In this document: in pieces, positions 581 through 44,638 of the stretch
Layout: the number at the start of each line of letters is the position of its first letter
How positions within the stretch are numbered: the first letter of the stretch is position 1
The notes under the pieces: model-generated
What the model was told of the DNA's origin: nothing
The model's database searches: none
Seen by the model: only the letters and a program-made list of their open reading frames with translations
DNA from: Cellulomonas sp. KH9
GTDB lineage: Bacteria > Actinomycetota > Actinomycetes > Actinomycetales > Cellulomonadaceae
Length of the DNA: 64,000 bases
NCBI RefSeq assembly: GCF_900114185.1
Contig: NZ_FOSE01000002.1
Location: 249,909 to 313,908, forward strand
Direction of reading: 5' to 3'
Translations under genes and position numbers: made by a program

Positions 581-1552
581 ATGCGTCTGCTCTTCGCGGG
601 GAGTCCCGCGGCCGCCGTTCCCTCCCTCGAGGCCCTCCTGGCCTCCCGGCACGAGGTGGCCGCGGTGCTCACCCGGCCCGATGCGCGCGTGGGGCGGGGG
701 CGGACGGTGCAGCCGTCGCCCGTCGGTGCCCTGGCCCGCGAGCGCGGTCTGCCGGTGCTGACCCCGCGGACGCTGCGCGACCCCGAGGTGGTCGCCGAGA
801 TCACCGCCCTGGGCGTGGACGCGGCACCGGTGGTCGCCTACGGGGTGCTCGTGCCGCCGGCGCTGCTCGACGTCCCGCGGCACGGCTGGGTCAACCTGCA
901 CTTCTCGGTGCTGCCCGCCTGGCGCGGGGCCGCGCCGGTGCAGCACGCGGTCATGGCGGGCGACGAGGTCACGGGCGCCTCGACGTTCCGGCTGGAGGAG
1001 GGGCTGGACACGGGGCCGGTGTACGGCACCCTCACCGAGACGATCCGCCCCACCGACACGTCGGGCGACCTGCTGGGTCGGCTGGCCGTGGCGGGGGCCG
1101 AGCTGCTGGTGCGGACGCTGGACGCGCTCGAGGACGGCGTGCTGGAGCCGGTGCCGCAGCCGGCGGACGGGGTGAGCCTGGCGCCCAAGCTGACGGTGCA
1201 GGACGCGCTGGTGCGCTGGCAGCACCCGTCGACCGCCGTCGACCGGCGGATCCGGGGCTGCACGCCTGCCCCCGGTGCGTGGACCACCCTGCCGGACGGG
1301 CAGCGGCTGGGCGTGGGGCCGGTGCGTCCCGTCCCGGAGGTGACGGACCTGCGCCCGGGCGAGGTGCGTGCGGACAAGCGGGAGGTGCTGGTCGGGACGG
1401 GGGCCGGCGCCGTGCGCCTGGGGGAGGTGACGGCACCGGGCAAGCGCCCGATGCCCGCGGCCGACTGGGCGCGGGGTGCGCGCCTCGACGCGGGGACCGT
1501 GCTGGGCCGGGTGCCGGAGGGTGCCGCAGCGTCCGAGGGGGGTGCCCGATGA
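581..1552 (+). CDS. fmt: Methionyl-tRNA formyltransferase
   Basis: Fmt transfers a formyl group from 10-formyltetrahydrofolate to initiator Met-tRNA in the cytoplasm. The 323-residue product has the normal family length. The N-terminal formyltransferase domain begins MRLLFAGSP, carries the catalytic N-x-H-x-S-x-L-P segment (VNLHFSVLP, about residues 104-112) followed by AWRGAAPVQ, and later GLDTGPVY with the conserved Asp. The C-terminal OB-like domain follows from about residue 205. The ATG at 581 is chosen because the domain starts there and a TAGGAT hexamer lies 7 bases upstream. The stop codon overlaps the start of rsmB by four bases (ATGA), which indicates translational coupling. Confidence 0.96.
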
Positions 1553-3120
1553 GCCGGGAGGACGGCCCGCGCCGTGACGACCGTGCCGGGCGCGACGAGC
1601 GTCCGCGCCGCGACGGCGGCGGTCAGGACGCCCGGCGTGACGCGCGGGGCCGGCAGCGTGGTGAGGCGCGGGTGCAGGGTCGCGCGGCACGCACGACGGC
1701 GGCGCCGTCGCAACGTGCTCGGCAGGGCGACGCCGCCCGCGGTGCGGCGTACGACACCCTGCGGGCGGTGGCGGACTCGGACGCGTACGCCAACCTGGTG
1801 CTGCCGCCGCTGCTGCGCGAGCGCCGGGTCGCCGGGCGTGACGCGGCGTTCGCCACCGAGCTGGCGTACGGCACCCTGCGGCTGCAGGGCCGGTACGACG
1901 CCGTGCTGGAGCAGGCGTCGTCGCGTCCGCTCGCGCAGGTGGACCCGCCGGTGCTCGACGTGCTGCGGATGGGTGCGCACCAGCTGCTGGGCATGCGGGT
2001 GCCGCCGCACGCGGCGGTCTCCGAGACGGTGGGCCTGGCCCGCGAGCGCGTCGGGGCGGGGGCGGCGCAGTTCGTCAACGCGGTGCTGCGCCGGGTGGCC
2101 GAGCAGCCCCTGGACGTGTGGTTGACGCGGGTCGGGGACGCGGCCGACCCCACGGGCGAGGACGTGGTCGCGCGGCTGGCCGCTGTGGAGAGCCACCCCG
2201 CGTGGGTGGTCCGGGCGCTGCGCGAGTCGTTGGTGGGGTCGGGGCGCTCGGCGGACGAGCTGGCGGCGCTCCTGGAGGCGGACAACGCGCCGCCCCGGGT
2301 GACGCTGGTGGCGCGTCCCGGGCTCGTGACGCCGGCGGGGCTCGCGGAGCAGGTGGACGCGGTGCCGGCCGGTCTGGCGCCGACGGCGCTGGTGCTGACC
2401 GGGGGAGACCCGGGTGCGGTGCCGGCGGTCCGCGACGGCCTGGCGGGTGTGCAGGACGAGGGGTCGCAGCTCGTGACGCTCGCGTTCGCCGCGGCTCCCG
2501 TCGACGGGCGCGACGAGCGCTGGCTGGACCTGTGCGCGGGACCCGGCGGCAAGGCGGCGCTGCTCGGTGCCCTCGCAGCCGGTCGGGGGGCGCGGCTGGT
2601 GGCCAACGAGGTGCAGCCGCACCGCGCCCGGCTGGTCGAGCAGGCGCTGCGAGCGGTGCCCCGTGACGCCGTGGAGGAGGTGCGCACCGCGGACGGGCGC
2701 ACCGTGGGGGAGCTGGAGCCCGGCGCCTACGACCGGGTGCTGCTCGACGCCCCGTGCACGGGTCTGGGCGCGTTGCGGCGGCGTCCGGAGTCCCGCTGGC
2801 GGCGCACGCCGGCGGACCTGGCGACGCTCGGCGCCCTGCAGCGCGCGCTGCTGGCGTCGGCGCTGGCGGCCGTGCGTCCCGGGGGTGTGGTCGGGTACGT
2901 GACGTGCTCGCCGCACCTGGCCGAGACGCAACTGGTGGTGCTCGACGGGCTGCGGGCGGCCACGCGGGCCGGCACGCCCGCGGAGGTCGTCGACGCCGCG
3001 CCGGTCCTCGCCGGTGTCGCGCCGGCGTGGGAGCCGGTGACGGGGCGCACCGACGTGCAGCTGTGGCCGCACGTGCACGGCACCGACGCGATGCACCTGA
3101 CGCTGCTGCGGCGGCTCTGA
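1549..3120 (+). CDS. rsmB: 16S rRNA (cytosine-967-C5)-methyltransferase RsmB
   Basis: RsmB uses S-adenosylmethionine to methylate C967 of 16S rRNA. The 523-residue protein begins with about 60 residues of charged Arg/Asp/Gly-rich sequence, longer than in enteric homologues. A NusB-like RNA-binding helical domain follows (AAYDTLRAV to about residue 200), then the SAM-dependent domain. Visible motifs are the SAM loop [10 protein letters not shown], motif [10 protein letters not shown] and motif [12 protein letters not shown], which supplies the catalytic cysteine. ATG 1549 overlaps the fmt stop codon. Long Arg-rich N-terminal tails are common in actinobacterial homologues; what this one does is unknown. 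Confidence 0.94.
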
Positions 3121-3142
3121 GCGCGGCGCCCGGCGGGGTCGG

Positions 3143-3148
3143 TAGCGT
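3143..3148 (+). promoter_or_regulatory. Leaderless-type -10 hexamer of rpe
   Basis: TAGCGT ends 7 bases before GTG 3156, which has no ribosome binding site. The spacing fixes the start codon. Confidence 0.6.
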
Positions 3149-3155
3149 GGTGCTC

Positions 3156-3827
3156 GTGCCACCCGTGCTGATCAACCCGAGCATCCTGTCCGCCGACTTC
3201 GCCAACCTCGAGCGGGACCTGCAGGCGATCGCGTCGGCGGACCACGCGCACGTCGACGTGATGGACCAGCACTTCGTGCCCAACCTCACGATCGGCCTGC
3301 CGGTGGTGCGGCGGCTGGCGGAGGTCAGCCCCGTGCCGCTGGACGTGCACCTCATGGTGGAGGACGCCGACCGTTGGGCACCGCAGTACGCGGAGGCCGG
3401 CGCCGCGTCGGTGACGTTCCACGCCGAGGCGACGCAGGCGCCGGTGCGCCTGGCGCGCGAGCTGCGCGCCGGCGGGGTGCGTGCCGCGGTGGCGCTGCGC
3501 CCCGCGACCCCGGTCGAGCCGTTCCTCGACCTCCTGGCGGAGGTCGACATGATCCTCGTGATGACGGTCGAGCCGGGCTTCGGTGGGCAGGCGTTCATCG
3601 AGGGCACGCTGGCGAAGGTGCGCCGGGCGCGCGCCGCGGTGGACGCGGCCGGTGCGGCGACGTGGATCCAGGTCGACGGCGGCGTCTCGCGCGACACCAT
3701 CGGGCGGATCGCCCGCGCCGGGGCGAACGTGTTCGTCGCGGGCTCGGCCGTCTACGGCGCGGCGGACCCCGCCCAGGAGATCGCGGCGCTGCGGGCGCTG
3801 GCCGAGCGCCCGACGACGCAGGCCTGA
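3156..3827 (+). CDS. rpe: Ribulose-phosphate 3-epimerase
   Basis: Rpe interconverts ribulose 5-phosphate and xylulose 5-phosphate in the pentose phosphate pathway; ribulose 5-phosphate is also the substrate of RibBA encoded just downstream. The 223-residue TIM barrel has the expected length. It starts [14 protein letters not shown] and contains the metal-binding segments [10 protein letters not shown] and DVHLMVE, the [10 protein letters not shown] loop and the phosphate-binding end DGGVSRDTI. The usual family motif reads VMDGHF; Gln replaces Gly here, a mild variation. The GTG start is set by the promoter hexamer 7 bases upstream. About 120 bases separate the gene from the FMN riboswitch, so rpe is probably not under FMN control. 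Confidence 0.95.
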
Positions 3828-3944
3828 GGCCGCCGGCACCGGACCCTGCGCGTCCGGCCCGCGCCACCGGACACCACAGGTCGGGGTGCGGACGGGCGGC
3901 CGGGCGGGAATGCCCCGTGTGGCATCATCGTTGTCGAACACACA

Positions 3945-4074
3945 CGTGCTCCGGGGTCGGTGAAAGTCCGAGCCGGCGGTGACAGTCCGCGACCCGTGAT
4001 CCCCGCGAGGGGTGAGCGGTTGACCTGGTGGAACTCCAGGACCGACGGTGAAAGTCCGGATGGGAGGAGACGCG
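3945..4074 (+). promoter_or_regulatory. FMN riboswitch (RFN element)
   Basis: This is an FMN-sensing mRNA leader. The conserved RFN blocks appear in order: GGGGTCGGTGAAAGTCCGA (from about 3952), GGCGGTGACAGTCCGCGACCC (split here as 3975-3995), GGTTGACCTGGTGGAACTCC (from about 4018), then CGACGGTGAAAGTCCGGATG and the closing GGGAGGAGA (4062-4070). It precedes ribD by 85 bases and is expected to repress the rib operon when FMN is plentiful. The ends are approximate because the outer P1 helix was judged by eye. Confidence 0.95.
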
Positions 4075-4110
4075 TGCGCGGTGCGCCTGCGGCGTGCCGT
4101 GACGGTGCGG

Positions 4111-4152
4111 TCCTCCGCCCGTGCTGCCCCGGAGCCCTGACGGCGACGGAGG
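4111..4152 (+). promoter_or_regulatory. Candidate RBS-sequestering hairpin of the FMN riboswitch
   Basis: CCTCCG at 4112-4117 can pair with CGGAGG at 4147-4152, which contains the Shine-Dalgarno sequence of ribD. TCCTCC at 4111-4116 can instead pair with GGAGGA at 4063-4068 at the 3' end of the RFN element. The two pairings exclude each other, as expected for a translational switch. The complementarity is read directly; the mechanism is inferred. Confidence 0.45.
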
Positions 4153-4158
4153 TGGACG

Positions 4159-5292
4159 GTGACGCGGACGACGACCGACGACGCCGCACGCGACGTGCCC
4201 GTGCCGGGCCCGCAGGGCGTGCTCCCGCACGAGGTCGACGCGATGCGTCGTGCCCTGGGGCTGGCGCACCGCGGGCCGACGGGCCCCAACCCCCGCGTCG
4301 GGTGCGTCCTGCTCGGCCGCGACGGCGAGGTCCTCGGGGAGGGCTGGCACCGCGGTGCGGGCACCCCGCACGCCGAGGTCGCCGCGCTGGCCGACGCCCG
4401 CGAGCGCGGTGCGGCCGTGCACGGCGCCACGGCGGTCGTGACCCTCGAGCCGTGCGACCACACCGGGCGCACCGGCCCGTGCTCGACGGCGCTGCTCGCG
4501 GCCGGGATCGCGCGGGTGGTGGTGTCCGTGGAGGACCCCAACCCCGTTGCCGCCGGCGGCACGCGCCGCCTGCGGGAGGCGGGTGTCGACGTCCTGACGG
4601 GCGTCCTGGCCGACGAGGGTCTGGCCGCGCTGGGCGCCTGGCTGCCCGCGGTGCGCCACGGTCGCCCGTTCGTCACCCTGAAGACGGCCACCACGCTCGA
4701 CGGGCGCATCGCCGCCGTCGACGGCACGAGCCGCTGGATCACGTCGGACGTGGCACGCCGGCACGCGCACGCGCTGCGCGCGGACGTGGGGGCGATCGTC
4801 GTGGGCACGGGCACCGCGCTGACCGACGACCCGTCGCTGACGGCGCGCACCGAGGACGGCTCGCTCGTCGAGCACCAGCCGCTGCGGGTCGTCGTGGGCC
4901 GTCGCGACGTGCCCGCCGGCAGCCGGCTGCGGGGCCCCGGCGGGGAGCTGGTGACCGTGCGCACGCACGACCCCGCGCAGGTGCTGGCCGTGCTGCACGA
5001 GCGCGAGGTGCGCCACGTGCTGGTCGAGGGCGGCCCGACGCTCGCCGCCGCGTTCCTCGCGGCCGGCCTGGTGGACGAGGTCCACGCGTACATCGCCCCG
5101 GTGCTGCTGGGCGCCGGCCCGGCCGCGGTCGGCGACCTCGGCATCACCACCATCACGCAGGCGCTGCGCCTGGTGCCGAGCACGGTGGTCCCGTTGGGGC
5201 CCGACGTGCTCGTCGTCGCCACGCTCCGGCCCGCACCGGCCGGCGAGGCACCAGCCCCGGCCGCACGTCCGTCCACCGAGGAGGAGCACTGA
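4159..5292 (+). CDS. ribD: Bifunctional diaminohydroxyphosphoribosylaminopyrimidine deaminase / reductase
   Basis: RibD performs the deamination and the side-chain reduction that follow GTP opening in riboflavin synthesis. The 377-residue protein has the zinc deaminase domain first, with HAEV and PCDHTGRTGPC supplying the metal ligands. The reductase domain follows (about 160-360), starting FVTLKTATTLDGRIAA and including the TSDVARRHAHALRA and LVEGGPTLAAAF segments. The GTG at 4159 has GGAGG 6 bases upstream, the site that may be masked by the riboswitch hairpin. The end overlaps ribE by one base (TGATG). It is the first gene of the rib operon. Confidence 0.96.
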   Translation: MTRTTTDDAARDVPVPGPQGVLPHEVDAMRRALGLAHRGPTGPNPRVGCVLLGRDGEVLGEGWHRGAGTPHAEVAALADARERGAAVHGATAVVTLEPCDHTGRTGPCSTALLAAGIARVVVSVEDPNPVAAGGTRRLREAGVDVLTGVLADEGLAALGAWLPAVRHGRPFVTLKTATTLDGRIAAVDGTSRWITSDVARRHAHALRADVGAIVVGTGTALTDDPSLTARTEDGSLVEHQPLRVVVGRRDVPAGSRLRGPGGELVTVRTHDPAQVLAVLHEREVRHVLVEGGPTLAAAFLAAGLVDEVHAYIAPVLLGAGPAAVGDLGITTITQALRLVPSTVVPLGPDVLVVATLRPAPAGEAPAPAARPSTEEEH

Positions 5293-5906
5293 TGTTCACC
5301 GGGATCGTCGAGGAGCTGGGCACGGTCGTCGCGCTGGAGCGCGGGGCCGGGGACGAGGCGGACGCGCGGCTGCGCGTGCGTGGGCCGCTGGTCACGTCCG
5401 ACGCGCGACCGGGCGACTCGATCGCGGTCAGCGGCGTGTGCCTGACCGTCGCGGACCTGCCGGGCGACGGCACGTTCGTCGCCGACGTCATGCCCGAGAC
5501 GCTGCGGCGCTCCGCGCTGGGCGACCTCGCACCGGGCGACGCGGTCAACCTGGAGCGGGCGCTGGCGGTCGGCGGCCGGTACGGCGGGCACGTCGTGCAG
5601 GGGCACGTCGACGGTGTGGGCGTCGTGCGGTCGCGCAGGCCCGGCCCTCGCTGGGACGACGTGGAGATCGGGCTCGAGCCGGCGCTGGCTCGGTACGTGG
5701 CCGAGAAGGGCTCCATCACGGTGCAGGGCGTGTCGCTGACGGTGACGCACGTGGGCGACGACACGTTCGGCGTCTCGCTGATCCCCACGACCCTGCAGGT
5801 CACGACGCTGGGGACGCTCGCGCCCGGGGCACGGGTCAACCTGGAGGTCGACGTGCTCGCGAAGTACACCGAGCGGCTGCTGGCCACGGCGGGGGTGGCC
5901 CGATGA
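5292..5906 (+). CDS. ribE: Riboflavin synthase alpha subunit
   Basis: Riboflavin synthase dismutates two 6,7-dimethyl-8-ribityllumazine molecules into riboflavin plus a pyrimidine. The 204-residue protein begins with the family hallmark MFTGIVEELG and holds two lumazine-binding repeats (about 1-97 and 98-195), visible as SIAVSGVCLTV in the first and SITVQGVSLTV in the second. It sits between ribD and ribBA with one-base and four-base overlaps, so the cistrons are almost certainly translationally coupled. The name ribE is used here for the synthase; some databases call the same gene ribC. Confidence 0.96.
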   Translation: MFTGIVEELGTVVALERGAGDEADARLRVRGPLVTSDARPGDSIAVSGVCLTVADLPGDGTFVADVMPETLRRSALGDLAPGDAVNLERALAVGGRYGGHVVQGHVDGVGVVRSRRPGPRWDDVEIGLEPALARYVAEKGSITVQGVSLTVTHVGDDTFGVSLIPTTLQVTTLGTLAPGARVNLEVDVLAKYTERLLATAGVAR

Positions 5907-7279
5907 GCGGCGACATCCGTCTGGGCACGGTCGAGGAGGCGCTCGACGCGCTGCGCGCCGGCCGCCCGGTGCTCGTCTCGGACTCCCAGGACCGGGAGAA
6001 CGAGGCCGACGTGGTCCTCGCGGCGCAGTCCGCGACGCCGGAGTGGGTCGCCTGGACGATCCGGCACTCCTCGGGCTACCTCTGCGCGCCGATGACCGGC
6101 GAGCGCGCGGACGCGCTGGACCTGCCGCTGATGGTCCCGCACAGCCAGGACCCCCGCCGCACCGCGTACACGGTCACCGTCGACGCCGCGACGGGCGTCA
6201 CCACGGGGATCTCCGCGGCCGACCGCGCCCGCACGCTGCGGGTGCTGGCCGACCCCGCGTCGGGCCGCACCGACCTCATCCGCCCCGGGCACGTGCTGCC
6301 GCTGCGCGCCGTGCCCGGCGGGGTGCTGCACCGCGCGGGGCACACCGAGGCCGCGGTGGACCTGTGCCGGCTGGCCGGCCTGGAGCCGGTCGCCGCGATC
6401 GCCGAGCTGGTGCACGACGACGGCACGATGATGCGGCTGCCGGACGCGGCCGCGGTCGCCGCCGAGGAGGGCCTGGTGCTCCTGACGATCGCCGACCTGC
6501 GGGCCTGGCGCCTCGCCCACGGCGACACCGAGCCGGAGCCCGTCGAGCCGGCCGCCCTGGCGCCGCGCGTGCACGCCACCCACACCGCGTACCTGCCGAC
6601 GCGCCACGGCGACTTCCGCATCCACGGGTTCCGTGACCTGCGCACCGGCGACGAGCACGTCGCGCTCGTCTCGACGTCGGGCCTGGCCGCCGAGCCGACG
6701 GTGCGGGTGCACTCCGAGTGCCTCACCGGCGACGCGTTCGGGTCCGCGCGCTGCGACTGCGGTCCGCAGCTGGACGCGGCGCTGCAGATCGCCGCCGCCG
6801 AGGGCGGCGCGGTCGTCTACCTCCGCGGGCACGAGGGCCGGGGGATCGGGCTGCTCGCCAAGGTCGCCGCGTACGCCCTGCAGGACGAGGGCCGCGACAC
6901 CATCGAGGCCAACGTCGACCTGGGGTGGCCCGCCGACCGGCGCGAGTACGGCGCCGCGGCGGCGATCCTGGCCGATCTCGGCGTGCGGCGCGTCCGCCTG
7001 CTGACCAACAACCCGGCCAAGGTCGCCGGGCTGCGCGCCCACGGCATCGAGGTCACCCAGGTGCGCGGCCTGGAGGTGGGTCGCACCCCGCACAACGAGG
7101 CGTACCTGCGCACCAAGGCCGTCAGCATGGGCCACGCGCTGCACCTCGACGACCCCGCGACCGTGGGCGCACCGGACGTGGCACCCGCCGTGCACGTCGC
7201 CCCCGTCCTCGCCGGCCCCGCACCGGCGGGCGCCGACACGACCGACCACACGTTCGCACCCCTGGAGGAGCTGGCATGA
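5903..7279 (+). CDS. ribBA: Bifunctional 3,4-dihydroxy-2-butanone-4-phosphate synthase / GTP cyclohydrolase II
   Basis: RibBA supplies both precursors of lumazine, from ribulose 5-phosphate and GTP. The 458-residue product is a fusion. The DHBP synthase domain (about 1-205) has [13 protein letters not shown] and the HSSGYLCAP segment. The cyclohydrolase II domain (about 215-425) has [10 protein letters not shown], the zinc cysteines in [10 protein letters not shown], and the HEGRGIGLL loop. Both sets of active-site residues look intact, so neither half appears degenerate. ATG 5903 overlaps the ribE stop. A roughly 30-residue Ala/Pro-rich tail follows the last conserved block. Confidence 0.96.
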
Positions 7280-7749
7280 GCGGTGCAGGCGCACCCACCT
7301 TGGACCTGGACGGCAGCGGCCTGAAGGTCGTCGTCGTCGCCGCGAGCTGGCACACCACCGTCATGGACGGTCTGGTCGCCGGCGCCGAGCGCGCGCTGGC
7401 CGAGGCCGGTGTGCGCGACGTCACCACCGTGCGCGTCCCCGGCTCGTTCGAGCTGCCCGTGGCCGCGCAGCGCGCCGCCGGCACGGCCGACGCGGTCGTC
7501 GCCCTCGGTGTCGTCATCCGCGGCGGCACCCCGCACTTCGACTACGTGTGCCAGGCCGCGACCTGGGGCCTGACGCAGGTCGGCCTGAACACCGGGGTCC
7601 CCGTCGGGTTCGGGCTGCTGACGTGCGACGACGAGCAGCAGGCCCTCGACCGTGCCGGGCTGCCCGGCTCGCGGGAGGACAAGGGCGCCGAAGCCGCGCA
7701 GGCGGCGGTCGCCACCGCGCTGACCCTGCGTGCGCTGGGCGACGCATGA
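7276..7749 (+). CDS. ribH: 6,7-dimethyl-8-ribityllumazine synthase
   Basis: RibH condenses the RibD-pathway pyrimidine with dihydroxybutanone phosphate and forms icosahedral shells or pentamers. The 157-residue product has the expected length. It contains the substrate-binding segments [16 protein letters not shown] and [16 protein letters not shown], and a C-terminal GAEAAQAAV helix. ATG 7276 overlaps the ribBA stop (ATGA). It is the last gene of the rib operon; hisE has its own promoter hexamer 35 bases later. Confidence 0.96.
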
Positions 7750-36707: not shown

Positions 36708-39422
36708 TCAGCGCACGGCGGTGTTGCGCGGGTCGCTGCGTGCCTGTCCGCGCAGCAGCACGATGTCGGCCTCGCGCAGCACCTCGCTCACGTCCCGCAT
36801 GCCGCGCACCGACCCGATGACCCCGATGGCGATCCGCGGGCCGATCTCCCGCCGCAGCCGCTCCAGCAGCTCGGTCAGCCGGTCCGGCATCCCGCCGGCG
36901 CCGACGTCGTCGACGAGGATCGCGAAGTCGTCCTCCCCCGTGCGGGCGGTCGTGTCGCCCTCCCGCAGGGGACGGCGCAGCTGCCGCACCACCTCGCGGT
37001 GGACGTCCGGCGCGTGGTCCTCGTCGCGCTGGACCGCCCCGCCGTCCACCACCCGGACGAACGCCACGGCGCAGTCGTACGCCGCCGACCGCCGGCACCG
37101 CAGCAGCGCGGCCCCCAGCCGGTCGAGGAACAGCAGCCGGTTCACCAGGCCCGTCTCCGGGTCGTGCAGCGCGTCGCGCTGCAGGGCGATCTCGGCCTCC
37201 TTGCGCTCGGTCACGTCGACCAGCGTCCCGACCAGCCGCGAGGGGCACCCCGCGTCGTCGAGCACGGTCACCGCGCGGCACATCATCCAGCGGTAGTCCC
37301 CCGACTGCGTGCGCACCCGGTGCTCGAGCTCCAGCGGCGTCCCGCACCCGGCGAGCTGCGCGGCGATCGCGGCGGACAGCTCGTCCCGGTCCGCGGGGTG
37401 CACGCGCTCGAGCCACTCCGACGGCTGGTCCCCGATGACGTCCTCGGCGTACCCGAGCGTCTGCTTCCACCGCGGCGAGTAGTACACCGCCCCGGCCGAG
37501 ACGTCCCAGTCCCAGGTCCCGTCGTGCGCGGCCATCGACGCGAGCGCGTACCGCTCCTCGCTCTCCCGGACCGTGTCGGCCAGCGCGCGCTCGCGGGCCG
37601 CCGCCTGCTCCAGCGCCTTGCGCTGCTCACGCAGCGAGCCCAGCAACCGCTCCTGGTCGAGCGCCACGGCGAGCAGCGCGGCCCAGTGGTTGAAGCGGTC
37701 CCGCGGCTGCGTGGCGCGCGTCTCGACGGTCCCGTCGATCGCGAGCAGGCCCCAGTCGCTGCCGCCGAAGGTGACCGGCACGACGAACGTCAGCTCGTTG
37801 GACCCCACGGTCCCCGCGCGCGTCAGCGCGGGGGGCGGGAACTGGCTCGCCGTGGTCCGCACCCCGACGAGCCGCGAGAGCGTCCCGCTGGTGTCGTGCA
37901 CGCCGACGATCTCCATCTCCCGGTCCCCGGGGCCGCGGTCCGTGCCGACCCACAGGCCCAGGCACGCGTGCCCGCGGACGCCGCGCGGCAGCCACCCCAG
38001 CGCGCGCGGGCTGGCGCCGTCGCCCCGCAGCAGGTCCATGTCGACCTCGTACTGGTCGACGATCGTGCGCTCCAGCTGGCCGCTGCGGGCCAGCATCGCG
38101 CGGGTGCACCCCTTGGTCACCGCGAGCAGGACGTCGGTGACCGCACGGCGCACCGCGGGCTCGTGCCCGGCGCGGGCCTCGTCGAGGGACGCGACGCGAC
38201 GGCGCTCGACCGCGCGCAGCACCGCGACCATCTGCTCGAGCGCCTCGGGGTGCGGCTGCAGCGCCGCGGTGAGGTCCGACAGGCGTCCCAGGGCGGCCGG
38301 CGCCGGTGAGACGCCCCGCTCCGCGGCGACCTCGACGGGCTCCTCCACGGCACGCCACCACGTCTCGCGGGCGTCGGGACCGGTGCGCCGCGAGACGGCC
38401 GACCCGGCAGGGCCCGCGAAGGCGGAGTCCGCCAACCGGCGCAGCAGCTCGGAGCCCGTGACGTCCCCGCCCTCCTGGCCCGGCGAGGTGACCTCGGTGC
38501 ACCCGCAGGACTCGCGCACCACCAGGGACGACGGCACACGGTGCTCCCCCGGCATCACGTCGTCACCCCGCATGCGCGCCAGCAGCAGCCCGACGGCGTG
38601 CTCGCCGACACGTCCGAAGTGCGCGTCCACGGTCGACAGCCGAGGGCTGACCCGGGCGCCCGAGTCCGCGTGGTCGAACGCCACGACCGCCTGGTCGCGC
38701 GGCAGCACGAGCCCGTGCGAGCGCAGCGCGCGCTGGAACCCGACGGCGTTGCGGTCGGTCGCCGCGATGACCGCGGTGGTGGGCGTCCCGGCCTGCAGCA
38801 TGCGGGCAGCCGCGTCGACGCCGCCCTGCTCCTGGTTGTCCGACGCCTCGTACCACCAGGAGTCGTCGGAGTCGATGCCGTGCTCGGCGAGCGTCGTCCG
38901 GTAGGCCGCGAAGCGCTCGCGCATGTCACGCTGCCCCAGGTTCCCCAGGAACCCGATGGCCGTGTGCCCGTGCCAGATCAGGTGCTCGACGGCCGCACGG
39001 ACGCCGCCGACGTTGTCGGGCACGACCACCGGGTCGTCCGGGTGCGCGGGGTCCTCGCTGATGAGGACCACCGGGACGCCCCACTCGCGCACCGCGGCGA
39101 GCCGCTCCGGGCTCAGCGCCTTGCCGATGACGACGAGCCCGTCGACGGCGCCCAGCGCCACCGGGGTGTCGAGCACCGACTCCTCGGGGTAGCGCTCGCG
39201 GTCGAGCCCTGCGGGATAGGTCTGGACGGCCACCACGCGGTGGCCCACGCCCCGTGCGGCCCGCGCCACGCCGGCGATCAGTGCGCCGAAGTAGAACCCT
39301 CCGACGACCGGCGACAGGACTCCGATCGTCCGACGCACCGTGGCGGGAACCCCGCGTCGGACCGTCACCATCTGCCACACCTCGCCCACACCGTCGGAGT
39401 CGAGCTGATGCTTTTGACCCAC
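36708..39422 (-). CDS. LacI-type sugar-sensor / GAF-like / PAS / degenerate GGDEF protein
   Basis: This 904-residue protein is a multidomain sensor without a membrane helix or signal peptide. Residues about 31-310 form a LacI/PBP-like ligand-binding domain (TIGVLSPVVGGFYFGALIAG, then AVEHLIWHGHTAIGFLGNLG and AVVAFDHADSGARVSPRLST). The helix-turn-helix that LacI proteins carry before this domain is missing. A helical linker and a GAF-like region (about 440-600, FVVPVTFGGSDWGLLAIDG) follow. A PAS/PAC domain (about 617-735, ending VGTLVDVTERKEAE) leads into a GGDEF-like domain (about 750-895). There the active-site signature reads GEDDF and the metal-binding FxDxD region is not conserved, so cyclase activity is doubtful. 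It is divergent from a LacI regulator, 17 bases apart, beside two cellulase genes. The start could instead be ATG 39371, which begins MVTVRRG. Confidence 0.85.
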   Translation of the reverse strand: MGQKHQLDSDGVGEVWQMVTVRRGVPATVRRTIGVLSPVVGGFYFGALIAGVARAARGVGHRVVAVQTYPAGLDRERYPEESVLDTPVALGAVDGLVVIGKALSPERLAAVREWGVPVVLISEDPAHPDDPVVVPDNVGGVRAAVEHLIWHGHTAIGFLGNLGQRDMRERFAAYRTTLAEHGIDSDDSWWYEASDNQEQGGVDAAARMLQAGTPTTAVIAATDRNAVGFQRALRSHGLVLPRDQAVVAFDHADSGARVSPRLSTVDAHFGRVGEHAVGLLLARMRGDDVMPGEHRVPSSLVVRESCGCTEVTSPGQEGGDVTGSELLRRLADSAFAGPAGSAVSRRTGPDARETWWRAVEEPVEVAAERGVSPAPAALGRLSDLTAALQPHPEALEQMVAVLRAVERRRVASLDEARAGHEPAVRRAVTDVLLAVTKGCTRAMLARSGQLERTIVDQYEVDMDLLRGDGASPRALGWLPRGVRGHACLGLWVGTDRGPGDREMEIVGVHDTSGTLSRLVGVRTTASQFPPPALTRAGTVGSNELTFVVPVTFGGSDWGLLAIDGTVETRATQPRDRFNHWAALLAVALDQERLLGSLREQRKALEQAAARERALADTVRESEERYALASMAAHDGTWDWDVSAGAVYYSPRWKQTLGYAEDVIGDQPSEWLERVHPADRDELSAAIAAQLAGCGTPLELEHRVRTQSGDYRWMMCRAVTVLDDAGCPSRLVGTLVDVTERKEAEIALQRDALHDPETGLVNRLLFLDRLGAALLRCRRSAAYDCAVAFVRVVDGGAVQRDEDHAPDVHREVVRQLRRPLREGDTTARTGEDDFAILVDDVGAGGMPDRLTELLERLRREIGPRIAIGVIGSVRGMRDVSEVLREADIVLLRGQARSDPRNTAVR

Positions 39423-39432
39423 ATCGGGCGCA

Positions 39433-39438
39433 ACACTA
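39433..39438 (-). promoter_or_regulatory. -10 element of the sugar-sensor gene
   Basis: TAGTGT on the minus strand, 10 bases before GTG 39422. It lies entirely inside the 17-base gap to the divergent LacI gene. Confidence 0.4.
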
Positions 39439-39439
39439 G

Positions 39440-40540
39440 GTGATCGTGGTCACTCCTGCACATGACACTGGCAAAGATGCTGTCTCTCCGGCGACCGGGG
39501 CACAGCCCGTCCTCGGCGGCCCTGGCGCCCGCCGACCGACGATCACCGACGTCGCCAAGGCCGCGGGGGTGTCCATCGCCGTCGTGTCGTACGCGCTGAA
39601 CGGACGCCCCGGCGTCTCGGCCGCCACACGAGAACGGGTGCTGCGCGTCGCCGACGAGTTCGGCTGGCGCCCGAGCGCGGCAGCGCGGTCCATGCGCAGC
39701 GGGCCCCGGGCGGTCGGGCTCGTGGTCGACCGGGGCCTCACCGGCGCGGTGGGCTACGGCGCCCACGTCCTGGAGTTCGTCGTCGCGCTGCAGGACGTCC
39801 TCGCCACGCGTGGGCTGGCCCTGGTCCTCCAGGTGGTCGACGACCTGCCGGCGGCGGTGGCGCTGTACGGCGAGTGGTGGGCCGAGCGCCGGTTCGACGT
39901 CATGGTCGTGACGGACGTGCGGACCGAGGACCCCCGGCTGGACGCGCTGCGTCGGCTGCGGATCCCCGCCGTGGTGGTCGGCGCGGGCGACGTCCCGGGC
40001 GAGGTGGCGAACGTCCGCGTCGAGGAGGAGCAGGCGGCCGAGCGGGTGGGCCGCTACCTCATCGAGCTCGGCCACCGTCACGTCGGCGCCGTGACCGGCC
40101 CGGCGTCGCTGCACCGCACGCGCTCGCGGGTCGCAGGCCTCGAGCGTGCGCTGGACGCCGGCGGCGGCGTGCTCACGCACGAGCCGACGGGCGGCTCCCC
40201 CGAGGAGGCGGCGGCCTCCTGCCGGCGCCTGCTGACCGGGGACCGTCCGCCGTCCGCGGTGGTGTTCGACACCGACCACATGGCGGTGGCGGCGCTCGAC
40301 GTGGCGCGGCGCACGGGGCTGGCGGTGCCGTGGGACGTCTCGATCGTCGCACTGTCGGACTCCGCGCTGTGCCGGCTGGCGACGCCGTCCATCACGTCGT
40401 TGCCGTCGGTCCAGGCGGAGCTCGGCACGGCGGTCGGCGAGGCCGTGCTCACGGTCCTCGACGCCCAGGGGGCGCCGGTGCGTCTGATCGAGGTCGGCGG
40501 TCTCGCCGTGCGGGGCAGCACCGGGCCGCGGTCCCGCTGA
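39440..40540 (+). CDS. LacI-family transcriptional regulator
   Basis: The 366-residue protein has a 31-residue N-terminal extension, then the LacI helix-turn-helix and hinge (PTITDVAKAAGVSIAVVSYALNGRPGVS, about 33-60). A periplasmic-binding-like effector domain follows, with HRHVGAVTGPASLHRTRSRVAGLERAL and PSAVVFDTDHMAVAALDVARRTGL. It is divergent from the sugar-sensor gene and upstream of the GH6/GH5 cellulase genes, so control of cellulase expression by a cello-oligosaccharide is a reasonable guess. No CelR-type TGGGAGCGCTCCCA box was found in the window. GTG 39446 is an equally possible start. Confidence 0.88.
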   Translation: MIVVTPAHDTGKDAVSPATGAQPVLGGPGARRPTITDVAKAAGVSIAVVSYALNGRPGVSAATRERVLRVADEFGWRPSAAARSMRSGPRAVGLVVDRGLTGAVGYGAHVLEFVVALQDVLATRGLALVLQVVDDLPAAVALYGEWWAERRFDVMVVTDVRTEDPRLDALRRLRIPAVVVGAGDVPGEVANVRVEEEQAAERVGRYLIELGHRHVGAVTGPASLHRTRSRVAGLERALDAGGGVLTHEPTGGSPEEAAASCRRLLTGDRPPSAVVFDTDHMAVAALDVARRTGLAVPWDVSIVALSDSALCRLATPSITSLPSVQAELGTAVGEAVLTVLDAQGAPVRLIEVGGLAVRGSTGPRSR

Positions 40541-40650: not shown

Positions 40651-40665
40651 TAACGGCGGCTTGCC

Positions 40666-40675
40666 TAAACGATTT
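40666..40675. promoter_or_regulatory. Candidate LacI-type operator 2 upstream of the GH6 gene
   Basis: TAAACGATTT has the central CG flanked by A's and T's that LacI/GalR-family operators favour, in an otherwise G/C-rich region, 126 bases before the cellulase start. The match is to the general pattern only. Confidence 0.35.
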
Positions 40676-40800
40676 GCCCCCGTTCGACCCCGCCGTCCGC
40701 GTGATGGATTCCCCACAGTCGTCGTGGACTGCGTCCGCGGCGGCACGCACCCGTCGCCGCCGAGGGCCGGGTGCGACCGACCACCCCCCGGAGGACCCGC

Positions 40801-42696
40801 GTGTCCACACACGGCAATCGAACGGAGCGAGGGCGCTGGCGCGCCGTCGCGACCGTCGCGACGGCAACGGCGCTCGTCGCGGTGCCCCTGACGCTCAGCA
40901 GCACGATGGCGACCGCTGCCGAGGCGCACGTCGACAACCCCTACGCCGGCGCCAAGCAGTACGTGAACCCCACGTGGGCAGCGACGGTTGAGAGCGCTGC
41001 CACACGTGCCGGCGACCCGACGCTCGCAGCCCAGATGCGCACCGTCGCCCAGCAGCCCACCGCCGTCTGGATGGACCGCATCAGCGCCATCAACGGCAAC
41101 GCCGACGGCAACGGCCTGAAGTTCCACCTCGACGAGGCCCTCAAGCAGAAGACCGGCAGCACTCCCCTGGTCTTCAACCTCGTCATCTACAACCTGCCCG
41201 GCCGCGACTGCTTCGCGCTGGCGTCCAACGGCGAGCTGCCGGCCAGCGACGCGGGGCTCGCGCGCTACAAGACCGAGTACATCGACCCCATCGTCGACCT
41301 GCTCTCGGACTCCAAGTACGCGGACATCCGCATCGCCGCGACGATCGAGCCCGACTCCCTGCCGAACCTCGTCACGAACATGTCCGAGGCCACCTGCCAG
41401 GCGTCGGCGCCGTACTACCGCGAGGGCGTGAAGTACGCGCTGGACGAGCTGAAGACGCTCGACAACGTCTACACGTACATCGACGCCGCCCACTCGGGCT
41501 GGCTCGGCTGGGACTCGAACTCGGGCCCGACCGCCAAGCTCTTCGCCGAGGTCGCCAAGTCCACCAAGAAGGGCTTCGCGTCGATCGACGGCTTCGTGAC
41601 CAACACGGCCAACAGCACGCCGCTGGCCGAGCCGTTCCTGCCGGACCCGACGCTGAACGTCGGCGGCAACCCGGTCCGCTCGTCGAAGTTCTACGAGTGG
41701 AACTCCGACTTCGGTGAGCACGCGTGGACGGCGCAGCTGCACCGCCTGCTCGTGGCCGAGGGCTTCCCGGCCTCGACCGGCATGCTCATCGACACGTCCC
41801 GCAACGGCTGGGGCGGCCCGGACCGTCCCACGAGGGTCTCGACGAGCACGAACCTCGACACGTACGTGAACGAGTCGCGCATCGACCGCCGCACCCACCG
41901 CGGCGCCTGGTGCAACCCGCTGGGTGCCGGCATCGGGGAGCTGCCCGTGGCCACGCCGTCCAGCGCACCGGCCGCCGCCCACCTCGACGCGTACGTCTGG
42001 ATCAAGCCCCCGGGCGAGTCCGACGGTGCGTCGAAGGAGATCCCGAACGACCAGGGCAAGAGCTTCGACCGCATGTGCGACCCGACCTACGTCGCCTCCA
42101 AGCTGGCGAACAACCTGACCGGCGCCACGCCGGACGCCCCGCTCGCCGGCCAGTGGTTCGAGGCCCAGTTCAAGACGCTCGTCAAGAACGCCTACCCGGT
42201 CATCCCGACGAGCGGTGCCACCCCCGGCCCCACCCCGTCGGTCACGCCGAGCCCGACGGTCACCACGCCGCCGCCGGTCACGCCCAGCCCGACGGTCACC
42301 ACGCCGCCGCCGGTCACGCCGAGCCCGACGGTCACCACGCCGCCGCCGGTCACGCCGTCGCCGACCGCGAACCCGGCCGGCGCCTGCGCCGTGACGTACA
42401 CGGCCAACAGCTGGAACAACGGCTTCACGGCGTCGGTCAAGGTCACCAACCGCTCCTCGTCCGCGCTGAGCAGCTGGAACCTGAAGTTCACCTTCGCCAA
42501 CGGCCAGCAGGTCCAGCAGGGCTGGAGCGCGACCTGGTCGCAGTCCGGCACGACCGTGACGGCCACCAACGCGGCCTGGAACGGCACGCTGGCCGCCGGT
42601 GGCTCGGTGGACATCGGCTTCAACGGCTCGCACTCCGGCACGAACAACGCGCCGACCGCGTTCACGCTGAACGGCGCCACCTGCTCGATCGGCTGA
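40801..42696 (+). CDS. Secreted GH6 cellulase (probable exo-cellobiohydrolase) with CBM2
   Basis: A secreted enzyme that cuts cellulose from chain ends, inferred from its long catalytic domain. The 631-residue protein has a Sec-type signal peptide (cleavage near ATAAEA, residue about 42) and a GH6 domain (about 43-470). The GH6 domain shows VIYNLPGRDCFALASNGEL, the catalytic Asp in TIEPDSLPN (about 181-189) and WIKPPGESDG (about 401-410). A Pro/Thr linker (about 471-526) has three near-identical 12-residue repeats, and a CBM2 cellulose-binding module (527-631) ends it. The GH6 domain of about 430 residues is close to that of exo-acting Cel6B enzymes and much longer than endo-acting Cel6A enzymes. 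GGAGG precedes the GTG start. Confidence 0.93.
   Translation: MSTHGNRTERGRWRAVATVATATALVAVPLTLSSTMATAAEAHVDNPYAGAKQYVNPTWAATVESAATRAGDPTLAAQMRTVAQQPTAVWMDRISAINGNADGNGLKFHLDEALKQKTGSTPLVFNLVIYNLPGRDCFALASNGELPASDAGLARYKTEYIDPIVDLLSDSKYADIRIAATIEPDSLPNLVTNMSEATCQASAPYYREGVKYALDELKTLDNVYTYIDAAHSGWLGWDSNSGPTAKLFAEVAKSTKKGFASIDGFVTNTANSTPLAEPFLPDPTLNVGGNPVRSSKFYEWNSDFGEHAWTAQLHRLLVAEGFPASTGMLIDTSRNGWGGPDRPTRVSTSTNLDTYVNESRIDRRTHRGAWCNPLGAGIGELPVATPSSAPAAAHLDAYVWIKPPGESDGASKEIPNDQGKSFDRMCDPTYVASKLANNLTGATPDAPLAGQWFEAQFKTLVKNAYPVIPTSGATPGPTPSVTPSPTVTTPPPVTPSPTVTTPPPVTPSPTVTTPPPVTPSPTANPAGACAVTYTANSWNNGFTASVKVTNRSSSALSSWNLKFTFANGQQVQQGWSATWSQSGTTVTATNAAWNGTLAAGGSVDIGFNGSHSGTNNAPTAFTLNGATCSIG
42241..42348 (+). 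repeat. Three tandem 36-bp repeats in the GH6 linker
   Basis: Units at 42241-42276, 42277-42312 and 42313-42348 differ by a single base and encode V-T-P-S-P-T-V-T-T-P-P-P; a fourth partial copy begins at 42349. They form the Pro/Thr hinge between catalytic domain and CBM2. Confidence 0.9.
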
Positions 42697-42737
42697 CAGA
42701 CCGGCTGACGAGCCGAGCGCGCACGCGCCCGACGTGA

Positions 42738-42777
42738 CGAAGGGGCCCTCCCGGACCAGTCCGGGAGGGCCCCTTCG
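42738..42777. terminator. Terminator between the two cellulase genes
   Basis: CGAAGGGGCCCTCCCGGA (42738-42755) and its exact complement (42760-42777) form an 18-bp stem with a CCAG loop. It is one of the strongest hairpins in the window and suggests the GH6 transcript ends before the GH5 gene. Confidence 0.8.
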
Positions 42778-42847
42778 GCGGCGGGGGCCGACACGCCCCC
42801 GCACTCCTGCCCCGCTCCCCTCCCGCCGTGCACTCCCCAGGAGAACC

Positions 42848-44638
42848 GTGTCCACCTCACGCGTGCGCCGCCTGCGCACCGCGCTCGGCAGCCTCGTCGC
42901 CGCCGGCGCCCTCACCCTCCCGCTCGCCCTGTCCGCGGCACCGGCGCAGGCCGCGCCCACCGACGACTGGCTGCACGTGCAGGGCAGCACGATCGTCGAC
43001 GCCTCCGGCAAGGAGGTGTGGCTCACCGGCGTCAACTGGTTCGGGTTCAACGCCACCGAACGCGTCTTCCACGGGCTGTGGTCGGCGAACATGCGGACCC
43101 TGACGCGCGACATCGCCGCCCGTGGCCTCAACGTCGTGCGCGTGCCCATCTCCACCCAGCTGCTGCTGGAGTGGAAGGCCGGCACGTTCACCAAGCCGAA
43201 CGTCAACGAGTTCGCCAACCCGGAGCTGGCGGGCCTCAACAGCCTGCAGGTCTTCGAGACGTGGCTCGACATGTGCGAGGAGTACGGCATCAAGGTCTTC
43301 CTCGACGTGCACAGCGCCGAGGCCGACAACTCCGGACACGTCTACCCCACGTGGTGGAAGGGCGACATCACCACCGAGAAGGTCTACGAGGGCTGGGAGT
43401 GGGCCGCGACCCGCTGGAAGAACGACGACACGATCATCGGTGCCGACATCAAGAACGAGCCGCACGGCACCCAGGGCGACACCGAGCGCGCCAAGTGGGA
43501 CGGCTCGACCGACAAGGACAACTTCAAGCACTTCGCCGAGACGGCGTCACGCAAGGTCCTCGCGATCAACCCGAACTGGCTCGTCTTCATCGAGGGCATC
43601 GAGATCTACCCCAAGCCCGGGGTGTCGTGGTCGTCGAAGGGTCTGACGGACTACTACGGCACGTGGTGGGGCGGCAACCTGCGCGGCGTGCGCGACTTCC
43701 CCATCGACCTGGGCGCGAACCAGGACCAGCTCGTGTACTCCCCGCACGACTACGGCCCGCTGGTGTACGAGCAGCCGTGGTTCACGGGCGACTTCGACCG
43801 CGCCAGCCTCGAGCGCGACGTGTGGGACCCGAACTGGCTGTACCTGCACAAGGAGGGCATCGCGCCGCTGCTCATCGGTGAGTGGGGCGGGTTCATGGAC
43901 GGCGGCAAGAACGAGAAGTGGATGCTCGCGCTGCGGGACCTCATCGTGGACCGCCGCCTGAGCCACACCTTCTGGGTGCTGAACCCGAACTCGGGGGACA
44001 CCGGCGGCCTGCTCGGGTACGACTGGGCGACCTGGGACGAGGAGAAGTACGCGCTGCTGGAGCCGGCGCTGTGGCAGCAGGGCGGCAAGTTCGTCGGGCT
44101 CGACCACGACGTCCCGCTCGGCGGCGCCGGCAGCACGACCGGCATCTCCCTCTCGCAGGCGACCGGGACCGGGGCCACACCGACCCCGTCGGTCACCCCC
44201 ACGGTGCGTCCGACGCTCACCCCGACCCCGACCCCGACGCCGTCCGCGTCGGTCTCCCCCGGCCCGACCGCCACCCCCACCGCCCCGCCGACCGCGGGGC
44301 CCACCCCGACGACCCCGCCGACCGGGGCCTGCACCGTGACGTACAGCGCGAGCTCGTGGAGCACGGGCCTGTCCGGCGCCGTGCGGCTGACCAACACCGG
44401 CAGCACCCTGTCGGGGTGGACGCTGACCTTCACCGCCCCGGCGGGCGTGACCGTCACGCAGGGCTGGGGCGGCACCTGGTCGCAGTCCGGGACTGCGGTC
44501 ACGGTGACCAACGCCACCTGGAACGGCGCCCTCGCAGCCGGCGGCACGGCGGAGATCGGCTTCAACGCGTCGCACGGCGGCACCGCCGGCACACCCACGG
44601 GCTTCGCGCTCAACGGTGCCCGGTGCGTCGTCGGCTGA
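42848..44638 (+). CDS. Secreted GH5 cellulase (endoglucanase) with CBM2
   Basis: A secreted endo-beta-1,4-glucanase. The 596-residue protein has a Sec signal peptide (cleavage after APAQA, residue 35) and a GH5 catalytic domain (about 36-440). The proton donor is in DIKNEPHG (Glu about 204) and the nucleophile in LIGEWGG (Glu about 345). A Pro/Thr linker (about 440-492) and a CBM2 (493-596) follow. The CBM2 is closely similar to that of the GH6 enzyme (both share TWSQSGT and ALAAGG/TLAAGG). AGGAGA precedes the GTG start. An upstream hairpin separates it from the GH6 gene and no clear promoter of its own was identified. Confidence 0.93.
   Translation: MSTSRVRRLRTALGSLVAAGALTLPLALSAAPAQAAPTDDWLHVQGSTIVDASGKEVWLTGVNWFGFNATERVFHGLWSANMRTLTRDIAARGLNVVRVPISTQLLLEWKAGTFTKPNVNEFANPELAGLNSLQVFETWLDMCEEYGIKVFLDVHSAEADNSGHVYPTWWKGDITTEKVYEGWEWAATRWKNDDTIIGADIKNEPHGTQGDTERAKWDGSTDKDNFKHFAETASRKVLAINPNWLVFIEGIEIYPKPGVSWSSKGLTDYYGTWWGGNLRGVRDFPIDLGANQDQLVYSPHDYGPLVYEQPWFTGDFDRASLERDVWDPNWLYLHKEGIAPLLIGEWGGFMDGGKNEKWMLALRDLIVDRRLSHTFWVLNPNSGDTGGLLGYDWATWDEEKYALLEPALWQQGGKFVGLDHDVPLGGAGSTTGISLSQATGTGATPTPSVTPTVRPTLTPTPTPTPSASVSPGPTATPTAPPTAGPTPTTPPTGACTVTYSASSWSTGLSGAVRLTNTGSTLSGWTLTFTAPAGVTVTQGWGGTWSQSGTAVTVTNATWNGALAAGGTAEIGFNASHGGTAGTPTGFALNGARCVVG

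Follow-up and report, generated by a model that had tools for sequence, protein, structure and literature searches.

Introduction

The LacI-family repressor CelR recognises the operator TGGGAGCGCTCCCA, and PelD is a degenerate GGDEF receptor without the cyclase signature. In Cellulomonas flavigena, cellulase genes carry sites of the type CNAA(T/A)CGNTT that are unrelated to CelR and for which no regulator is named in the sections available to us of the 2012 survey that reports them (PMC3377646). For the amlR cluster of Actinoplanes, the authors suggest, in the available part of their text, a possible feedback on the LacI regulator (PMC6828939). Here we analyse a stretch of 64,000 nucleotides from Cellulomonas sp. 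KH9 (the window; contig NZ_FOSE01000002.1, positions 249,909 to 313,908), where a protein that combines a LacI-type ligand core with PAS and degenerate GGDEF domains (the sensor) is encoded divergently from a LacI-family regulator (the partner LacI). Genes for a GH6 and then a GH5 cellulase follow the partner LacI; an original prediction made from the letters of this stretch had stated that the sensor gene neighbours LacI and both cellulase genes.

On balance, we consider it probable from the sequences compared that the sensor and the partner LacI form one split, sugar-responsive regulator of plant-cell-wall-degradation genes. The proposal is built on computed observations: the module is conserved, the GGDEF motifs are lost throughout the sensor clade, an operator co-occurs with the sensor across the family, and the effector-pocket residues differ between the two proteins.

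Results

The sensor, the divergent LacI and GH6 form a conserved module

An orthologue scan of GTDB genomes retrieved relatives of the sensor at 30 loci, 28 in Cellulomonas and two in Kribbella, with 51–96% identity in the best segment; two of these relatives are incomplete or split, one lying at a contig end (L016; L and G numbers are our handles for loci and genomes) and one having a split frame (L038). In all 28 loci that are long enough, the sensor is divergent from LacI and GH6 comes next after LacI; in C. bogoriensis (L034), a gap of 1.8 kb separates LacI from GH6. At this locus and at the two in Kribbella, the only window flanks that matched were LacI, GH6 and, in L035, GH5-like pieces. 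The same arrangement recurs at seven further loci of the family (L078–L083 and L085), and at L097 the contig ends after LacI. The survey of architecture and neighbours that the original prediction had called for thus reveals a module conserved in Cellulomonadaceae and also present in Kribbella, and the suspected tie of the sensor to the adjacent LacI and cellulases takes the form of a conserved unit whose genes are inherited together and whose operator is conserved as well.

A search for plasmid carriage gave no match in the plasmid collection. The sensor frame is split, by frameshift or assembly error, in L038 and L157 (G701) and in L192 (G697).

Cyclase motifs are lost throughout the sensor clade

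The GGDEF signature, a metal-binding Asp and the nucleotide-binding FKxxND/GHxxGD region serve the synthesis of cyclic di-GMP (c-di-GMP), and the RxxD of the I-site serves its binding. In the sensor, the signature reads GEDDF (residues 829–833), the commonest form among the 30 aligned rows being AEDDF, and its GG is kept in none of these rows. The metal-binding Asp after beta-1 is replaced by Arg in 29 of these rows, and a linker of variable length stands in place of the FKxxND/GHxxGD region, so that the pseudo-cyclase supposed earlier from GEDDF is borne out. The fold is recognised by the Pfam GGDEF profile at residues 751–891 (38.1 bits; cut-off 23.8).

The domain is absent, as judged by the length after the SCGC signature that ends the ligand core, in 14 of the 63 module-clade rows of the tree described below, which corresponds to five changes on the tree, four of them forced by well-supported branches; absence was seen residue by residue in L080, L081, L085 and L097. 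With motifs missing clade-wide and the domain gone in many members, c-di-GMP synthesis cannot be the conserved function, and as an activity of the sensor it was rejected on the loss of the cyclase motifs. Between the two outputs first proposed, the nucleotide signal finds no support as the likely one, and the protein-interaction signal is the one that we favour, with LacI as its target.

Effector-pocket residues differ between sensors and partner LacI proteins

We found 105 partner LacI proteins, all from loci with a degenerate sensor; 78 are full length and 73 distinct. The recognition helix reads VS(I/T)AVVSYALN, or a one-residue variant of it, in all 73, and AVVS is found in none of 40 partner homologues from module-less genomes. 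Mean identity among the partners is 85% in the helix-turn-helix (HTH) versus 46% in the effector domain.

The column of PurR Asp275 is an effector contact. When the sequences are aligned to it, none of the 73 distinct full-length partners has Asp (26 Ser, 14 Thr, 11 Glu, nine Ala, five Gly, five Arg, two Asn and one gap), whereas Asp is found in 82/82 sensors, in 32/32 members of the intact-GGDEF group (the 31 intact-GGDEF frames described below and one split module sensor, L192), in 18/18 LacI paralogues of the own genome and in 37 of the 40 homologues from module-less genomes that served as control (two Glu, one masked). The pocket Arg is kept in 48 of the 73 partners, as against 82/82 sensors, 32/32 intact-group members, 17/18 paralogues and 40/40 homologues.

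In G797, G798 and G771, the match to the partner LacI contains one internal TAG, which may reflect an alignment overrunning the gene end or a truncated regulator.

A LacI-type operator lies before GH6 and other cell-wall genes

In the 64-kb window, for which 0.06 matches are expected, the pattern CNAAWCGNTT has a single match, in the GH6 promoter. At the best-matching place of the LacI–GH6 gap, an exact C(C/T)TAA(A/T)CGNTT is present in 25 of 28 loci, only exact cores being counted as sites because the method always returns one place per gap; the core differs in L025, L034 and L038, and in L034 an exact CNAAWCGNTT stands at another place of the gap. A larger set of GH6-containing module loci, partly redundant, has the exact site in 67 of 79 cases. 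In Kribbella albertanoniae (L035 12052), a second CNAAWCGNTT lies ~1.4 kb past the sensor match, near the match to the GH5 query at 12271.

In the own genome, CCTAAWCGNTT is found at ten places and its reversed control at none. The genes beside eight of them are two GH9, two GH6 (one being that of the module), a GH10, a GH11 with a deacetylase domain, a CBM2-GH30 and a GDSL esterase with a lectin domain, that is, a glycoside hydrolase beside seven sites and the esterase beside one; a single gene was scanned per site (two for L124 and L126), and the far-side genes were mostly outside the scan. A looser pattern, CNAAWCGNTTNG, has 19 own-genome places, four of them common with the CCTAAWCGNTT set. 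Neighbours scanned at eight further places include four of the cell-wall kind (a GH48, a GH10, a CBM2 esterase and a CBM4_9/CelD_N protein), and since the neighbours are mixed this pattern is the less specific. A perfect palindrome, CGAATCGATTCG, stands beside another own-genome LacI gene (L102; G000:C2:1082018) and perhaps belongs to a LacI regulon that is distinct but similar in its core.

Control of GH6 by CelR was rejected: with up to three mismatches, TGGGAGCGCTCCCA has seven matches in the window versus 7.6 expected, none of them in the GH6 promoter. So was self-regulation of the module through its operator, as the divergent promoter holds no site. About 80 bp of this promoter (39371–39460) are conserved across Cellulomonas, with a TAGTGT −10-like element and a GTGA-N6-TCAC palindrome that is presumably a CRP-type site and inside which the listed LacI start codon falls. 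The form TGTGA-N6-TCACC has eight own-genome places, the divergent-promoter palindrome, whose first base differs, not being among them.

The operator co-occurs with the sensor across the family

We then compared 200 genomes of the family, 79 with and 121 without the sensor. A genome was counted as sensor-bearing on a match to the middle-region profile at E ≤ 1e-50 (74 genomes) or on split matches (five genomes, four of genus g12 and G697); the sensor-less class is made up of 29 genomes whose matches are all weaker and 92 that have none, 72 of the latter being so classed by their absence from the list of matching genomes. At least one exact CCTAAWCGNTT is present in 79/79 sensor-bearing versus 22/121 sensor-less genomes, and at least two in 70/79 versus 6/121, the latter being the fairer count because one site per sensor-bearing genome is expected from the module itself. 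In the ten genera with both classes, every sensor-bearing genome has the site and the share of sensor-less genomes with it is lower in each; none of 20,000 within-genus label shuffles reached the observed value. All 79 sensor-bearing genomes have a GH6, and among the 63 sensor-less genomes that also have one, eight carry the site and one carries at least two, so that GH6 alone does not explain the site.

Among the six sensor-less genomes with at least two sites, the reversed control is equal or higher in G660, G747 and G753, which thus represent background, and the count exceeds it in G680, G709 and G770. A missed module is possible in G770, which has a large GH6 and ~840 contigs. G709, with two exact CCTAAWCGNTT, also holds the highest-scoring LacI homologue among the module-less genomes (43% identity, Asp and Arg kept).

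Anatomy of the sensor

In the sensor, Pfam matches Peripla_BP_3 at residues 145–306 (1.9e-30) and PAS_3 at 646–733 (7.8e-18), besides GGDEF, and gives no match to the LacI HTH (PF00356). The LacI-type core begins at about residue 30 when aligned to an ancestral LacI (9nt3) and to CcpA (2fep), so that neither an HTH nor a signal peptide nor a membrane helix has space ahead of it; absence of the last two is judged from this core position, no dedicated predictor having been run. By its anatomy, the sensor thus appears to be a soluble, cytoplasmic protein that has lost its HTH, as originally predicted. The LacI-type core, the PAS and the degenerate GGDEF domain of that prediction also stand, and its “GAF-like” part found no confirmation: the middle region (~310–615) has no Pfam match in the sensor or in nine relatives scanned, and residues ~440–600, for which the AlphaFold model is weak (predicted local distance difference test, pLDDT, 68), have no PDB fold match below E 0.3. 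The model of the whole sensor (pLDDT 66; predicted template modelling score, pTM, 0.31) is too weak for use beyond domain recognition, and its best 50 Foldseek matches are LacI/CcpA-type cores and the PAS-GGDEF-EAL protein PA0861.

Mean pairwise identity among the Cellulomonas and Kribbella orthologues is highest, of five segments, in the PAS domain (0.88), followed by residues 441–600 (0.87), the ligand core (0.80) and the pseudo-GGDEF domain (0.675), and only 0.60 in the helical part, 310–440. Translation probably starts at the ATG at 39371 (Met18) rather than at the listed start, because the frames of L012 and L035 close one or two codons upstream of Met18 and because the conservation of the DNA ahead of it is that of a promoter.

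Ancestry of the sensor

For the family of the middle domain, 396 genomes sampled by phylum gave one match at a limit of E 1e-10, in the genome of the window itself; at a limit of E 1e-5, matches were present in 6/394 class-sampled, 22/297 order-sampled and 108/200 family-sampled genomes. The wider family comprises 31 open reading frames at 27 loci with intact GGDEF motifs and 114 at 111 loci without, the locus counts including some genomes twice, as two copies of the same genome; “intact” was defined by two motif expressions, which L094 passes with GGDES. All 31 intact frames have the SCGC signature after the ligand core and 28 an EAL-type motif, with a Pfam EAL domain in seven of the eight scanned; in none of the stretches fetched around them is there an operator or a divergent LacI that resembles the partner. 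By comparison, seven of the 114 degenerate frames show no divergent LacI, two at a contig end (L016, L147) and five where the frame is open upstream past the neighbour (L159, L173, L179, L182, L184).

Removal of near-copies reduced 137 rows to 93, five loci with split or truncated frames being dropped. In the tree of these 93 non-redundant rows, the 63 module sensors form one clade with a support of 100; the 30 intact-GGDEF rows are all placed outside this clade, on one side of the tree. With the tree rooted at its midpoint, the direction would be from intact to degenerate GGDEF. We infer that a c-di-GMP enzyme of the LacI-core(-PAS)-GGDEF(-EAL) type was the ancestor of the sensor, which now has no EAL domain and has lost the cyclase motifs but has kept the sugar-binding core. 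The two Kribbella rows nest beside C. cellasea, and this position among Cellulomonas suggests that the unit has moved; joint transfer of the whole module to Kribbella is what we would propose from the sensor tree.

In L088 (G015, 1265–7555), a GGDEF-EAL relative lies downstream of a GH6 gene, without divergent LacI or operator, which may be a parallel union of a sugar sensor with a cellulase. In L207 (G726:C1), three LacI-core/GGDEF relatives with intact motifs stand in a row on one strand.

Features of the locus, in window coordinates
Feature	Position	Strand	Basis or remark
Sensor open reading frame	36708..39422	-	904 aa; HTH-less; frame real in sequence
LacI/periplasmic-binding-type ligand core, residues 30–308, end signature ESCGC	38499..39335	-	Peripla_BP_3; alignment to ancestral LacI 9nt3 and CcpA 2fep
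Middle region, residues 310–615 (helical, then alpha/beta, then long helix)	37578..38495	-	Alignment
PAS domain, residues 620–745	37188..37565	-	PAS_3
Pseudo-GGDEF domain, residues 747–893	36744..37184	-	GGDEF profile; motifs lost
RxxD (REGD) at I-site position, 5 residues before GEDDF	36954..36965	-	Kept in 27/30 rows
GTGA-N6-TCAC palindrome of the divergent sensor/LacI promoter, conserved	39440..39453	.	Phylogenetic footprint
Partner LacI, intact HTH, altered effector pocket	39440..40540	+	LacI HTH PF00356 (1.2e-14); PF13377
LacI-type operator CCTAAACGATTTG in GH6 promoter	40664..40676	+	Pattern match; kept in orthologue LacI–GH6 gaps
GH6-CBM2 cellulase	40771..42696	+	Pfam
GH5-CBM2 cellulase, in many, not all, module loci	42734..44638	+	Pfam

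Discussion

We favour a split regulator because the sensor, without HTH and cyclase motifs, keeps the sugar-contact residues while the partner keeps the HTH but not the canonical Asp, and often not the Arg, and because both proteins stay together beside the same promoter element. We infer that the partner LacI is the protein that binds the operator; it would recognise C(C/T)TAA(A/T)CGNTT (proposed target site CCTAAACGNTT) before GH6, GH9, GH10, GH11 and GH30 genes and a looser site before GH48. The sensor core would bind a cello- or xylo-oligosaccharide, and the change induced by this ligand would pass through the middle and PAS regions of the sensor. LacI cores pair with each other, which makes a contact of core to core, as between LacI subunits, a natural guess for the way in which the sensor would touch its partner; this contact might either release the partner from the operator or stabilise it there.

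Several observations weigh against this picture. Twelve of the 79 module loci with GH6 have no exact site in the stretch, two of the ten own-genome sites adjoin no recognisable cell-wall gene (a GNAT protein, an antiporter and a family-less frame stand there), and four of the eight scanned looser-pattern loci lie beside other genes (a LacI, a nucleotide-cyclase domain, a WYL regulator and a solute-binding protein). The operator was not found in the divergent promoter of sensor and LacI, and there is hence no autoregulation signature linking LacI to the site. The co-occurrence itself has to be read with care, as one site per sensor-bearing genome is expected from the module alone, the genomes are not independent and within-genus shuffling corrects for shared descent only in part, and the close linkage of sensor, LacI and GH6 prevents the co-occurrence from telling which of the three goes with the site. 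Finally, 48 of the 73 partners keep the Arg, and 4o5a, the closest solved LacI to the partner, also has no Asp in the column; loss of the Asp is thus not unique to the module, and the pocket may be re-specialised and not dead.

This last point leads to the alternative that the partner LacI senses a different effector of its own and that the sensor is a separate protein merely sharing its neighbourhood, which we regard as unlikely. The Asp column is indeed varied in the partners and not deleted, apart from one gap, and both the retained Arg and 4o5a fit such a re-specialised pocket; against this, the module-less homologues keep Asp in 37/40 and Arg in 40/40 cases, and sensor and LacI have remained together across a long divergence and in Kribbella. 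It is also conceivable, at a distinctly low probability, that another regulator of the cell binds CCTAAWCGNTT and that the sensor and its partner are bystanders, serving as markers of cellulolytic genomes. The own genome has at least 18 other LacI paralogues to choose from, and the module's own divergent promoter lacks the site, but a bystander would hardly account for 79/79 versus 22/121 genomes with the site, a contrast that persists among GH6-bearing genomes and in each of the ten mixed genera, nor for the exact site beside the partner LacI in 25 of 28 loci and the near-invariant recognition helix.

Other alternatives concern the pseudo-GGDEF domain. It could be a c-di-GMP receptor of the PelD kind, binding through the I-site RxxD, so that the sensor would join c-di-GMP and sugar signals in the control of cellulases. 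Degenerate GGDEF receptors are known, the GGDEF fold is still recognised by Pfam and the RxxD is kept in 27 of 30 rows; however, RxxD is common in the GGDEF fold generally, it is lost in L024, L026 and L034, 14 of 63 clade rows, judged by length, lack the domain altogether through five changes, and its identity is the second lowest of the five segments (0.675 versus 0.88 for PAS), all of which makes a receptor role rather doubtful. That the sensor is a c-di-GMP enzyme in decay, without present function, seems very improbable: the degenerate signature, the repeated loss of the GGDEF domain and the split frames in L038/G701 and G697 would be expected of it, but identity is high in the ligand core, in residues 441–600 and in the PAS domain, if not in 310–440, Asp and Arg are kept in 82/82 sensors, and the module is also present in Kribbella.

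Cellulomonas is a classical cellulose degrader, and the split regulator that we prefer provides a candidate regulator pair, an operator and a list of targets. If the reading is true, a second-messenger enzyme has been turned into the ligand subunit of a transcription switch, and matching losses in two proteins preserve the history of the swap. In its most far-reaching form, which we consider possible but would not call probable, the pair would be a sugar-responsive LacI repressor divided between two genes. One subunit would bind DNA and have lost its effector pocket, the other, HTH-less and derived from a c-di-GMP enzyme, would bind the ligand, and together they would act as a master switch for the regulon of cellulose and xylan degradation in the Cellulomonadaceae. 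We found no description of the module in the titles and abstract openings of the open-licence papers that our searches listed, preprints not being covered.

The direct relatives of the sensor are the actinobacterial LacI-core(-PAS)-GGDEF(-EAL) proteins, which share its N-terminal architecture and the SCGC signature but have intact GGDEF motifs, an EAL-type motif in 28 of 31 cases and, in the fetched stretch, no divergent partner-like LacI or operator. PelD-type receptors likewise have a GGDEF fold without the cyclase signature, and most sensor orthologues keep the RxxD, but the domain is lost outright in many module members. The nearest published parallel that we found, as far as the available part of that report goes, is the amlR-amlE-ACSP50_2473 cluster of Actinoplanes, in which a LacI regulator, a glycoside hydrolase (a maltase) and a GGDEF-EAL protein likewise stand side by side; there, the GGDEF-EAL protein has an N-terminal membrane segment, and no LacI-type sugar core is reported for it in that part (PMC6828939). 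The C. flavigena site shares with the module operator the core CNAA(T/A)CGNTT and the kind of target genes; the GH6 site of the window departs from it at the position that follows the core, and the sections available name neither a regulator nor a sensor for it (PMC3377646). CelR of Thermobifida fusca and the actinobacterial CelR-type repressors, as described in the same sections, likewise represent control of a cellulase regulon by a LacI-family protein that acts at a short palindrome close to the genes (PMC3377646). CelR, however, is one protein that responds to cellobiose itself, whereas here the operator bears no relation to the CelR site and the DNA-binding and ligand-binding roles appear to be divided between two proteins.

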